Shown here piece after piece: positions 4,494 through 8,898 of a stretch of 24,211 nt of DNA. A program made the position numbers and the translations under genes. Positions within the stretch are counted from its first letter, which is position 1. Every line of letters starts with the position of its first letter. This stretch comes from a virus, in the IMG/VR virus record IMGVR_UViG_3300033153_006621, positions 1-24,211 of that record; one strand, 5' to 3'. The notes under the pieces are model-generated. The model was not told where the DNA came from. It saw nothing but the letters and a program-made list of their open reading frames with translations, and did not search any database.

Positions 4494-4697
4494 ATTTAGT
4501 AGTAGCGCGTTTCCTTGCGGCACCATTTAGTAGTAGCGCATTTCCTTGCAGCACCATATAAAGGATGATCTTCAAACAATACTACTTTTCCAGTTTCAAA
4601 ATAATCCGTCATAATCTCAGTATTGTCTTTCAAAACTGCCGTATAGAATAACTATTTTGCCCTTTATTGAGGCACTTACTTTATGATAAGTATTCAT
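4492..4697 (-). pseudogene. small gene broken by frameshift and a 3' tandem duplication
   Basis: A good ribosome binding site (AAAGGAG) precedes ATG ending at 4697, but that frame stops after 26 codons (TGA at 4617-4619). A neighbouring frame continues with ordinary protein-like sequence: YTAVLKDNTEIMTDYFETGK, then VVLFEDHPLYGAARKCATTK. The 3' end holds a 31-bp tandem duplication (4494-4524 and 4525-4555, two mismatches). Since 31 is not a multiple of three, each copy reads the same tail (GAARK[C/R]ATTK) in a different frame, and the outer copy ends directly at TAA. The ancestral protein was probably about 60 residues. The family is not recognised. Confidence 0.6.
4494..4555. repeat. 31-bp tandem duplication
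   Basis: Two adjacent copies of a 31-bp unit containing TAGTAGTAGCGC and TTTCCTTGC, differing at two positions (G to A in both cases). It duplicates the C-terminal codons of the broken gene, with an inner short TAG repeat that could have promoted slippage. Confidence 0.85.
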
Positions 4698-4725: not shown

Positions 4726-4750
4726 GAAAAGCACACTATAAAATAATGTG
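4726..4750 (-). terminator. possible terminator of the candidate ncRNA
   Basis: On the minus strand the 19 bases from 4750 to 4732 form an 8-bp stem (CACATTAT with ATAGTGTG, one G-U pair) with a 3-base loop, followed by CTTTTC. The stem is AT-rich and the T tract short, so it is a weak candidate. Confidence 0.4.
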
Positions 4751-5199
4751 TTTTATAATGCCGCTTCGGTTCGCTACACCAAAGCTACAAAATGTGTGGG
4801 ATTATATTCGCAGTTAATCTATTAAAGATTCTGGCACGTTTTCCCCGTTGCAGTTAATCGTTTAGATTCTGACACAACTTCACACACTCCTGAATATAGC
4901 GCCCGGTTCGCTTTAAGCCTCTTTAGCAGGTAAGTTTATAAAAAACTTCTAGCACTAATAAAACATTTTGTCATAATGTTTTGGGCTTATGAGTCTATCC
5001 CGTGCGGATAAAGATTTCTGCATTATCCTAGCTAGTTAAAAAACTTCTAGCATATTCGCATTGCGGTTAGCTCACGCCCCGATTTTTATTAGATATAATA
5101 AAAAGCGAGGTCTTGGGTTTGCGCTAGATCAGTTAATATCGTGTATTCTGTCAATCTAGTCTGGGGCTTTCTTACTAATAGCAAGTAGCGACATCCATA
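4726..5199 (-). ncRNA. candidate large structured noncoding RNA, about 470 nt
   Basis: No gene is supported here, but nested complementarity is dense. A closing stem can be built from four successive helices: TCGC/GCGA (5056-5059 with 5188-5191), TTGC/GCAA (5061-5064 with 5181-5184), TTAG/CTAA (5067-5070 with 5175-5178), GCCCC/GGGGC (5076-5080 with 5163-5167). It encloses two hairpins: a 9-bp stem with a 4-base loop (5083-5104), and CTAGAT/ATCTAG extended by CAG/CTG (5124-5159). A second domain, TAAGCC/GGCTTA (4913-4918 with 4984-4989), encloses an 8-bp hairpin (4960-4982) and AAGTTT/AAACTT. A third uses TGTGTG/CACACA (4793-4798 with 4881-4886). The minus strand is favoured because a promoter-like pair sits just before the closing stem and a terminator-like hairpin follows the last domain. 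The RNA class is unidentified. Alternatives are a replication origin or a long leader. Confidence 0.5.
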
Positions 5200-5205
5200 T
5201 ATGTA

Positions 5206-5233
5206 AGTATATACACTATATAGAGTAATACAA
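5206..5233 (-). promoter_or_regulatory. sigma70-type promoter for the candidate ncRNA
   Basis: On the minus strand TTGTAT (5233-5228), a 16-base spacer, and TATACT (5211-5206), each close to the -35 TTGACA and -10 TATAAT consensus. The predicted start near 5199 is eight bases before the first strand of the closing stem (5191). In such AT-rich DNA, chance matches are frequent. Confidence 0.45.
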
Positions 5234-5237
5234 GCTT

Positions 5238-5339
5238 GTAAGTCATTGATTTATATAGCTTTTTATAATTAACTAATCTATAGAAACTTTATATATTATA
5301 TACAATTCATACGTAAGTCATTGATTTATATAGCTTTTT
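5238..5339. repeat. two exact 27-bp direct repeats
   Basis: Copies at 5238-5264 and 5313-5339, 75 bases apart, are identical and begin GTAAGTCATTGATTTATATA. They lie just upstream (minus-strand sense) of the ncRNA promoter. The core ATTGATTTATAT occurs a third time at 5995-6006, before the gene at 5418-5975. They are probable protein-binding sites, either for transcription control or for the replication or partition machinery. Confidence 0.75.
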
Positions 5340-5975: not shown

Positions 5976-6004
5976 TTTATACTCCTTCTTTTTAATTGAT
6001 TTAT

Positions 6005-6061
6005 ATGAAACGAAAATAAACGTAGCGTAGCGGAGTTTTTCGTTTCATTGCGCGGAGCGCA
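6005..6061 (-). promoter_or_regulatory. two adjacent GC-containing hairpins in the leader of the 185-aa gene
   Basis: A 12-bp perfect inverted repeat (ATGAAACGAAAA at 6005-6016, TTTTCGTTTCAT at 6037-6048) with a 20-base loop holding CGTAG repeats. It is directly followed by TGCGC-GGA-GCGCA (6049-6061). Both stand out against AT-rich surroundings and lie about 30-85 bases before the start codon ending at 5975. A leader attenuator, operator or origin hairpin is possible. Confidence 0.55.
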
Positions 6062-6091
6062 CAATCTTTTTATTTTACTACGGTTATGAAT

Positions 6092-6140
6092 AATCATATA
6101 ATCTTTAATCATAAAGAATCATAAGCATTTTAAAATCATG
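6092..6140. repeat. AT-rich AATCAT repeats beside the iterons
   Basis: AATCATA at 6092-6098, 6107-6113 and 6117-6123, and AATCATG at 6134-6140, in a strongly AT-rich stretch 40 bases from the first iteron. This arrangement is typical of the unwinding region of an iteron origin; the role is inferred. Confidence 0.5.
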
Positions 6141-6179
6141 CTGTAAACGTTGTGCTATATAGCTTTCTAAAAAAACACT

Positions 6180-6286
6180 GCACTCCAACTTACAATAGTT
6201 CGCACTCCAACTTACAATAGTTTTTAACTATAAGCACTCCAACTTACAATAGTACTGTTTTTATCTGCACTCCAACTATCAATAGT
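6180..6286. repeat. four iterons, probable origin of replication
   Basis: Three exact 20-bp copies of GCACTCCAACTTACAATAGT at 6180-6199, 6202-6221 and 6234-6253, and a fourth with small changes near its middle at 6267-6286. Start-to-start distances are 22, 32 and 33 bases, close to two, three and three helical turns, so all would face the same side of the helix. The fourth copy overlaps the stop codon of the rep-like gene. Direct repeats of this size and phasing next to an initiator gene are the hallmark of iteron origins. The unusual point is that they follow rather than precede the gene. Confidence 0.85.
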
Positions 6287-7190
6287 CATTATATTTAATT
6301 ATCACATTTTCTTCTTTGAATTTTAAAATATATTTGCCAGTTTTTATTTTTTTATTTATTCCTTTAATAGATTTTTCTAAAAAATCCTTCATTCTATAAA
6401 TACGTGTATTTCCACTAATAGCTAATTTATTAATACAAAATTGTCTTATATTTAAATTAATGCCTTTTTCTGTTTTTAAATAGCCTTCTGCTCCTTTTAA
6501 ATATAAATAAAGATTTTTTGATGTAGTACCTTTTAATTGCAAAACAGTTTCATACTTTAATTGTGCTGAAAACTTTATACCTAGTAAATCAATAAACCTT
6601 TTTGTAAATTCAATATGTATACCTTCTTCCTCATCTTTATCGCTATTCCAATATGAATCAATACTACAAATAACATTGCTAATACCTAATGCGTGTTTAA
6701 AAGTAGTAGCTTTATTTCCATTATAAATGCGTATATTTTTTTGATACATTATTGAAGTTTTGCTCCATTTATCAAAAGAATTCCAAAGCATTCCATAATA
6801 TGTTTCACTTATTGGTAAAGCTAAAGCTTTTAAAATAGCATAAGTAGATTTAAAATCCACATAATATTGATTATTTGTTGTAGCTAAATAAATAAGTCCC
6901 ATTAATATTTTATGATCAAATTCACCCGGTAATGGATTTTCTCCCCTATCTAAAAATTGTTCTGCATCTGATAATGCCATACCAACCGCATACCTTTTAT
7001 TTCCTTTACGATTAAAATGCCCAATTTTATCTTTACCTCCAGGCATTAATACAAGTCCATTTTTTCTATCCATATTAATTACAAATCTATTTAATTTATA
7101 CGTAGGTGGAAAACATAAAGGATGCTGGCAGGCTAATCTATTTAATCTAAACTCTTTTTCATTTTCAATTATTAATTCAACTCTTTTCAT
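6279..7190 (-). CDS. iteron-type replication initiator-like protein, 303 aa
   Basis: Start placed at the ATG ending at 7190, with GGGGAGG seven bases upstream; a longer in-frame start at 7259 has no such site. The protein begins MKRVELIIENEKEFRLNRLA and is basic, with alternating helix and strand, as expected of a winged-helix initiator: LPGEFDHKILMGLIYLATTN reads like the first recognition domain (near residue 88), and the second half has YLYLKGAEGYLK and FLEKSIKGINKKI. I cannot assign a named Rep family from sequence alone. The call rests mainly on context: four phased iterons at its 3' end, AT-rich repeats beyond them, and a small HTH gene overlapping its start by 14 bases. Known initiators of this kind bind iterons as monomers and repress their own gene as dimers. 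An unrelated phage replication protein remains possible. Confidence 0.65.
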   Translation of the reverse strand: MKRVELIIENEKEFRLNRLACQHPLCFPPTYKLNRFVINMDRKNGLVLMPGGKDKIGHFNRKGNKRYAVGMALSDAEQFLDRGENPLPGEFDHKILMGLIYLATTNNQYYVDFKSTYAILKALALPISETYYGMLWNSFDKWSKTSIMYQKNIRIYNGNKATTFKHALGISNVICSIDSYWNSDKDEEEGIHIEFTKRFIDLLGIKFSAQLKYETVLQLKGTTSKNLYLYLKGAEGYLKTEKGINLNIRQFCINKLAISGNTRIYRMKDFLEKSIKGINKKIKTGKYILKFKEENVIIKYNDY

Positions 7191-7416
7191 TTTTAGGCCT
7201 CCCCTGCTTAATGTTTTTCTTATGCCATTTTTCCATTTCTTTAATATTATAAAGTACATTTATCCGTGTACTATTTTCATTAGGCATTGGTTGTGTACTA
7301 AATGGACATCCTTTTTTACGCCAGTTTTGTACTGTTAAAACCGTTATGCCAAAATGTTCAGCAACTTGTCTAGCATTTTTATTTCTAGTTGCATTTTTAA
7401 TTCTTATACGTTCCAC
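7177..7416 (-). CDS. small HTH DNA-binding protein, 79 aa
   Basis: Starts at GTG (7416-7414) with AAGGAG upstream. Residues 14-36 (NARQVAEHFGITVLTVQNWR onward) form a clear helix-turn-helix of the type found in MerR-like, excisionase and small-terminase N-terminal domains. The C-terminus is basic (KKNIKQGRPKNEK), with GRP resembling an AT-hook-like clamp. It overlaps the rep-like gene by 14 bases and contains its ribosome binding site, so the two are co-expressed. It may be a regulator or accessory of replication. It is too short to be a full terminase small subunit, and no terminase large subunit is nearby. A 7-bp inverted repeat upstream could be its operator. Confidence 0.72.
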   Translation of the reverse strand: MERIRIKNATRNKNARQVAEHFGITVLTVQNWRKKGCPFSTQPMPNENSTRINVLYNIKEMEKWHKKNIKQGRPKNEKS

Positions 7417-8505: not shown

Positions 8506-8898
8506 ATGAAAACTAAAATTATATTATTACTACTATTATTAAATACTCCTATCGCTTATGCTGAGGGGCAATTCTCAATCCATTTAGTTACTGGTCATAT
8601 TGGTATAAACAATCTTGAAACTGTAACACCTGGCATTGCCTATACAGAAAAAGGATACCGTGCCGGTGTAATCCGGAATAGTTTTAGATTGCCAAGTTTT
8701 TATGCCGCAAAATTGTATGATATCAATCATCGGTTACGTTTCGGTTTAGGTATCATTACTGGATACTCAATTGAAGGCTTACATTTAAAAGGCGATACAT
8801 CTGGAGTTATACCTTTATTAGCTGCTGAATTTGATATTAATAACCAATTATCAATATTATTTACTGGACGTGCTTTTAATTTAGAACTTAAATTCTAA
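8506..8898 (+). CDS. exported small beta-barrel-like outer membrane protein, probable moron, 130 aa
   Basis: The only well-supported plus-strand gene. Residues 1-19 (MKTKIILLLLLLNTPIAYA) are a typical Sec signal peptide with an AYA/E cleavage site. The mature part has amphipathic strands with alternating aromatic residues (TEKGYRAGVIRNSFRLPSFY, LRFGLGIITGYS) and ends in FNLELKF, a C-terminal Phe as in outer membrane barrels recognised by BAM. The YRAGVxRNS...Y motif recalls small phage-borne barrel proteins whose exact function is unknown; PagL/PagP-type lipid A modification is possible, but no catalytic residues can be assigned. It is inserted between late genes on the opposite strand with its own promoter, and its stop lies five bases from the stop of the tip gene. 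That is the layout of a moron altering the host surface in lysogens. Confidence 0.75.
   Translation: MKTKIILLLLLLNTPIAYAEGQFSIHLVTGHIGINNLETVTPGIAYTEKGYRAGVIRNSFRLPSFYAAKLYDINHRLRFGLGIITGYSIEGLHLKGDTSGVIPLLAAEFDINNQLSILFTGRAFNLELKF

Follow-up and report, generated by a model that had tools for sequence, protein, structure and literature searches.

We find that the minus strand of the window (the whole stretch of viral DNA analysed, 24,211 nucleotides) carries, between ~5200 (5' end) and ~4730 (3' end), an RNA of ~470 nt whose conserved structure is almost certainly real. It is best read as the founder of a new family of large structured RNAs in phages, of which two members were found, and the locus is best explained as a gene for an independently transcribed, untranslated RNA. 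In general kind it is a gene-free region with a covarying structure kept across different phages. The large multi-domain noncoding RNA suggested for this strand by the original prediction is supported by fold statistics on the two strands, a colinear homologue and many compensatory changes. An internal-loop hairpin that occurs in four copies, diagnostic of the RNA, had been overlooked there.

The region 4726-5199 had been described as devoid of genes, and our check of reading frames agrees: it holds no credible gene on either strand, and the longest frame on the RNA strand has 31 codons. The proposed comparison with dinucleotide-shuffled sequence gave a minimum free energy (MFE) of -120.4 for the minus strand versus -102.2 in the shuffles (z -2.92; 1/100 shuffles as good) and a weaker signal for the plus strand (z -1.78). 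The homologous RNA in locus L142 has the same bias, with a z of -3.6 on the RNA strand versus -0.8 on its complement. The gene lies on the minus strand amid minus-strand genes, and the conserved G-U pairs that flank the internal loop of the repeated hairpin would turn into C.A mismatches on the opposite strand.

The homologue occupies L142:7808-8290 in a 54-kb viral contig (record G001). It was reached by a two-hairpin pattern scan of IMG/VR, which returned mostly chance matches, followed by local blastn, which singled out L142. The two RNAs are colinear and of equal length, with four modules in matching order. Their global alignment has a z of 18.4 against dinucleotide shuffles, and of 14.8 after removal of everything from module B on, the region that contains the pattern letters. 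Similarity begins at the 5' end, where both have AUGUCGCUAC, and extends through module C; the last ~85 nt do not align. The G001 primase is related to primases of Stenotrophomonas and Pseudoxanthomonas phages. Comparison of the proteins of the window with those of L142 gave only weak matches, to the tape-measure protein and a 67-residue piece of a tail protein; judged by sequence, no other convincing gene is common to the window and L142, and the two phages otherwise appear different. A ~22-bp hairpin at L142:8228-8275 immediately follows the homologous RNA; it uses GATAGTGG, which also takes part in an alternative upstream pairing (CCACTATC), and could be a switch or a processing site.

The elements of the locus, all on the minus strand, are as follows.

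4726 to ~5200, minus strand: large structured RNA, recognised by fold z, the L142 homologue and covariation
5206 to 5233, minus strand: promoter-like site, -35 TTGTAT (5233-5228, weak) and -10 TATACT (5211-5206)
5185 to 5194, minus strand: conserved 5' element AUGUCGCUAC, identical in L142
5171 to 5185, minus strand: P2, hairpin CUUGCU-AUU-AGUAAG; L142 has CCUU-AUAU-AAGG in the same position
5124 to 5159, minus strand: module A, CUAGAU-UG-A-CAG-AAUA-CACGA-UAUU-AAC-UG-AUCUAG
5075 to 5123, minus strand: P5, CGC.AAA.CCC (5123-5115) with GGG.GCG (5080-5075); 6/6 pairs kept, 1 compensatory
4990 to 5074, minus strand: P6, 5074-5058 with 5005-4990; 13 pairs, 7 compensatory
5051-5031 and 5028-5006, minus strand: P7a and P7b, hairpins enclosed by P6
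4914 to 4989, minus strand: P8, UAAGCC (4989-4984) with GGCUUA (4919-4914), enclosing P9 and module F
4982-4960, minus strand: P9, inside P8
4923 to 4958, minus strand: module F, UUAG-UG-C-UAG-AAGUUU-UUUAU-AAACUU-ACC-UG-CUAA; 6 compensatory changes versus L142
4912-4898, minus strand: P11, hairpin AGCG-AACCGGG-CGCU (4892 to 4912 together with the next element)
4897-4892, minus strand: conserved single-stranded AUAUUC, directly after P11
4847 to 4878, minus strand: module B, GUUG-UG-U-CAG-AAUC-UAAAC-GAUU-AAC-UG-CAAC
4809 to 4838, minus strand: module C, CG-UG-C-CAG-AAUCU-UUAAU-AGAUU-AAC-UG-CG
4764 to 4785, minus strand: 3' hairpin CUUUGGU-GUAGCGA-ACCGAAG, which cannot be aligned to L142
4733 to 4751, minus strand: weak terminator candidate, a 3' hairpin followed by CUUUUC

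The module consists of an outer helix, an internal loop and an inner helix. The loop reads UG-N-YAG / A(A/C)C-U(G/A) and is asymmetric, 4x3 (N-YAG / A(A/C)C); the outer helix terminates in U-G and G-U pairs. Hairpins of the form CAGAAT-loop-ATTAACTG occur in three exact copies versus 0.00 expected in shuffles, and the diverged fourth copy (UGCUAG...ACCUGC) has the same anatomy. While the internal loop is constant, both helices, outer and inner, and the apical loop differ freely from copy to copy and from phage to phage; the copies thus covary among themselves, since their helix sequences differ. A module descriptor finds exactly four matches in the window record and four in the L142 record, in the same order; 100 shuffles of the window gave no match, and 3.05 Mb of other loci gave a single one. 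Because the descriptor was composed with both sequences in view, its specificity rather than its sensitivity is informative. Identity with the UAA/GAN loop (3x3, UAA opposite GAN) was rejected: the strict descriptor has no match in 4726-5199 and the module loop is 4x3. Kink-turns are defined by a 3-nt bulge followed by tandem sheared G.A and A.G pairs; by reading, the shorter loop strand carries no GA in any of the eight modules. GGA, the mark of CsrA/RsmA sites, is absent from the apical loops of all eight.

The check for compensatory changes in homologues that the original prediction had proposed revealed many of them versus L142. All 75 consensus pairs form in both phages, 28 of them kept by double changes, and the controls for this set lean in its favour because it was derived on the same alignment. 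In an unguided MAFFT alignment of the part from module F to module C (161 columns), 33/33 pairs form in both sequences, with 11 double changes; none of 500 shuffles was as good and slid structures gave 0-2, the helices having been picked with both sequences in view. A full-length structure of 80 pairs taken from the window alone has 89.7% of cells paired, a figure depressed by MAFFT misaligning columns around module A and P2, and 18 double changes (0/500 shuffles). The helices of module A and P2 are also kept when aligned by hand. P5, P6 and P8 were contributed by RNAalifold. The U-rich hairpin enclosed by P5 (~5104-5083) is missing from L142, and two pairings, GCCCC/GGGGC and CCUCG/CGGGG, would draw on the same G's as P5, which is tentatively preferred because of its single compensatory change. 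A candidate 5'-3' closing pairing, P1 (GAUGUCGCU 5195-5187 with AGCGGCAUU 4765-4757), by which the conserved 5' element may pair with the 3' end, appears in the MFE structure of the window RNA and has a weak counterpart of only 5 bp in L142.

The four-step closing helix paired by eye in the original prediction (TCGC/GCGA, TTGC/GCAA, TTAG/CTAA, GCCCC/GGGGC) can indeed form where it was placed and is the MFE structure of nt 1-150 alone, with pair probabilities mostly >0.9, but its probability falls to 0-0.15 in the full-length fold. When the model transcript is grown past 4990, the helix drops from 0.90 to 0.08 and P6, which takes its 3' arm and excludes its outer steps, rises up to ~0.6. At aligned columns of L142, only 9/17 closing-helix pairs are possible. 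The closing helix is therefore probably not part of the final fold. Support for P6 is comparative, a matter of aligned sequences; the folding energy of L142 taken alone does not favour its own P6. Since L142 could form other long pairings of the 5' arm, with low predicted probability, a transient early helix is conceivable.

The ends of the RNA were considered together with the adjoining signals. The -10 box lies exactly 11 nt upstream of AUGUCGCUAC in both phages (TATACT in the window, a perfect TATAAT in L142), which is consistent with a putative transcript start 4-5 nt upstream of this element. The promoter TTGTAT-16-TATACT previously suggested is present at 5233-5206, but its -35 box is poor and the site is missing from the promoter scan list. 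Similarly, a terminator-like hairpin does precede CUUUUC at 4751-4733, but it is weak and the terminator scan does not list it. The position of the 3' end is unsure because the last ~85 nt do not align.

In searches of Rfam 15, the window RNA had no match at the gathering threshold and no credible one at E<=10, and the L142 RNA had no credible match at E<=10. The covariance models of ROOL, GOLLD and OLE gave no match to the window at gathering, nor to the window or L142 at E<=10, so that the caution of the original prediction, which had named GOLLD and ROOL without claiming identity, was right. ARAGORN detected no tRNA genes in the window, which is a fragment, or in the L142 locus; tRNA islands are frequent near ROOL and GOLLD, although not required. 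The window RNA resembles ROOL as a large, ornate RNA encoded by a phage or prophage, but it differs in having no Rfam match (E<=10), no adjoining tRNA island and, as its hallmark, the internal-loop hairpin in four copies. With GOLLD it shares large size, phage origin and multi-hairpin domains; GOLLD is often >800 nt (PMC12286853), whereas the window RNA is about half as long, with neither tRNA nor Rfam match. A ~800-nt noncoding transcript of ICP1 (PMC7567579) and lncRNAs of phage K (PMC9241854) are likewise large RNAs from gene-free phage stretches, and model R1 has no match in the whole genomes of either phage. As it matches none of the GOLLD, ROOL, ICP1 and phage K RNAs, we file the window RNA as a new family within large phage RNAs; very probably it belongs to no known family, the literature compared being openly licensed papers.

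Searches for further members covered several kinds of data. Blastn searches of phages and plasmids with the RNA as query gave chance matches or matches to the upstream repeats only. Scans of viral contigs with an exact 20-mer, single modules and other motifs yielded, among the matches listed, chance hits in mostly coding sequence, except for L142; L321, one match listed in the scan of genome contigs, lacks the RNA and was rejected. Relatives were also sought via neighbour proteins (tape measure, Rep-like protein, DUF932). The closest DUF932 relative listed, 66% identical to the window's protein, is encoded by L196, a 45.9-kb viral contig in which model R1 finds no RNA; the RNA is thus not tied to the DUF932 gene. 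Over ~2.85 Mb of fetched loci, model R1 recovered the window, L142 and nothing else that held up; two weak matches (17 and 16 bits) were rejected, as many of their pairs are broken.

What the RNA does can be approached from the conservation pattern of the module. A constant internal loop within freely varying helices suggests a docking site, used four times, and the RNA would then work as a multivalent platform. One protein, of the host or the phage, might be bound via the four equivalent sites and be titrated or scaffolded. We put a probability of roughly 0.4 on this explanation as a whole, and the protein-platform mechanism within it is offered tentatively, on the grounds of sequence conservation. 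In action it would resemble the protein-titrating RNAs of the CsrB/RsmZ type, in which a short hairpin site is repeated many times. The CsrB/RsmZ site is GGA in apical loops; here, in contrast, apical loops vary, the internal loop is constant and there are only four copies. The fuller proposal, that the RNA represents an unknown class able to dock one protein at four identical sites, serves as a decoy or scaffold during infection (for example, of a host RNA-binding or defence protein) and moves as a self-contained gene between unrelated phages, is rather doubtful in its entirety. Only a few large structured RNAs are known from phages, and what they do is unknown. The new family offers a simple repeated site that lends itself to mutation and to use as bait, making the question of a binding partner directly testable, and the four-module signature, with one other match in 3 Mb, is specific enough for finding more members by descriptor.

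A loop that served as a bend or a tertiary motif would give the same conservation pattern. The main alternative to the protein platform, although in itself unlikely, is that RNA alone builds a scaffold or cage of the GOLLD/ROOL type, with the four internal loops as tertiary or intermolecular contacts. GOLLD and ROOL build cages via loop and A-minor contacts (PMC12286853), and the window RNA is similar in size class, phage location and possession of several multi-hairpin domains; moreover, the 7-nt apical loop GUAGCGA of the hairpin at 4764..4785 is complementary to UCGCUAC at the 5' end (5191-5185). The lack of an Rfam match to either family, the lack of tRNA genes in the window and the L142 locus and a length below that of GOLLD speak against it. 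A cis-acting leader (riboswitch, attenuator or translational regulator) of a small downstream gene would explain why a ribosome-binding site (RBS) and a small open frame follow ~25-40 nt after the RNA in both phages with no strong terminator between. We regard this as quite unlikely, since the downstream frames of the two phages look unrelated and that of the window carries a frame change and a 31-bp duplication that break it; in addition, the conserved part stops ~100 nt before the RBS, the intervening stretch being the part that does not align.

Still less probable is a trans-acting regulatory RNA that pairs with target mRNAs through unpaired AUGUCGCUAC and AUAUUC, its modules only stabilising it or binding a chaperone. 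Both segments are identical in the two phages while stems change, but stability alone needs fewer than four copies of one internal loop. Finally, the hairpins might act as DNA, in a replication origin or recombination site, given two perfect direct repeats just upstream (5238, 5313) that are similar to repeats in gene-free plasmid sequence. Neither the conserved RNA nor the similarity between the two RNAs includes these repeats, and the conserved G-U pairs and strand bias in folding fit RNA, not DNA, making this reading highly improbable.

Several features of the surrounding sequence deserve mention. A small phage gene with a good RBS (4494-4697) is seemingly broken: frames 4697-4617 and 4633-4496 look like two parts of a single protein separated by a frame change, and the tandem duplication (4494-4555) lies inside the latter frame. 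Between minus-strand genes, a plus-strand frame (8506-8898) encodes 130 aa with a signal-peptide-like start and no Pfam match. The 326-aa protein encoded at 6279-7259 looks like a putative replication initiator; it had no match in Pfam, PHROGs, NCBIfam, PDB sequences, phages or plasmids. A second gene-free piece, 6000-6149, folds with low energy when read on the minus strand (z -3.17), and its plus strand has a terminator-like hairpin at 6049. The direct repeats, 27 bp each (5238-5264 and 5313-5339; AAAAAGCTATATAAATCAATGACTTAC on the minus strand), resemble elements in gene-free DNA of plasmids from Aliivibrio (2 copies, ~68 bp apart), Burkholderia and Acinetobacter, in the last case upstream of a replication gene; they are perhaps iterons or recombinase sites.
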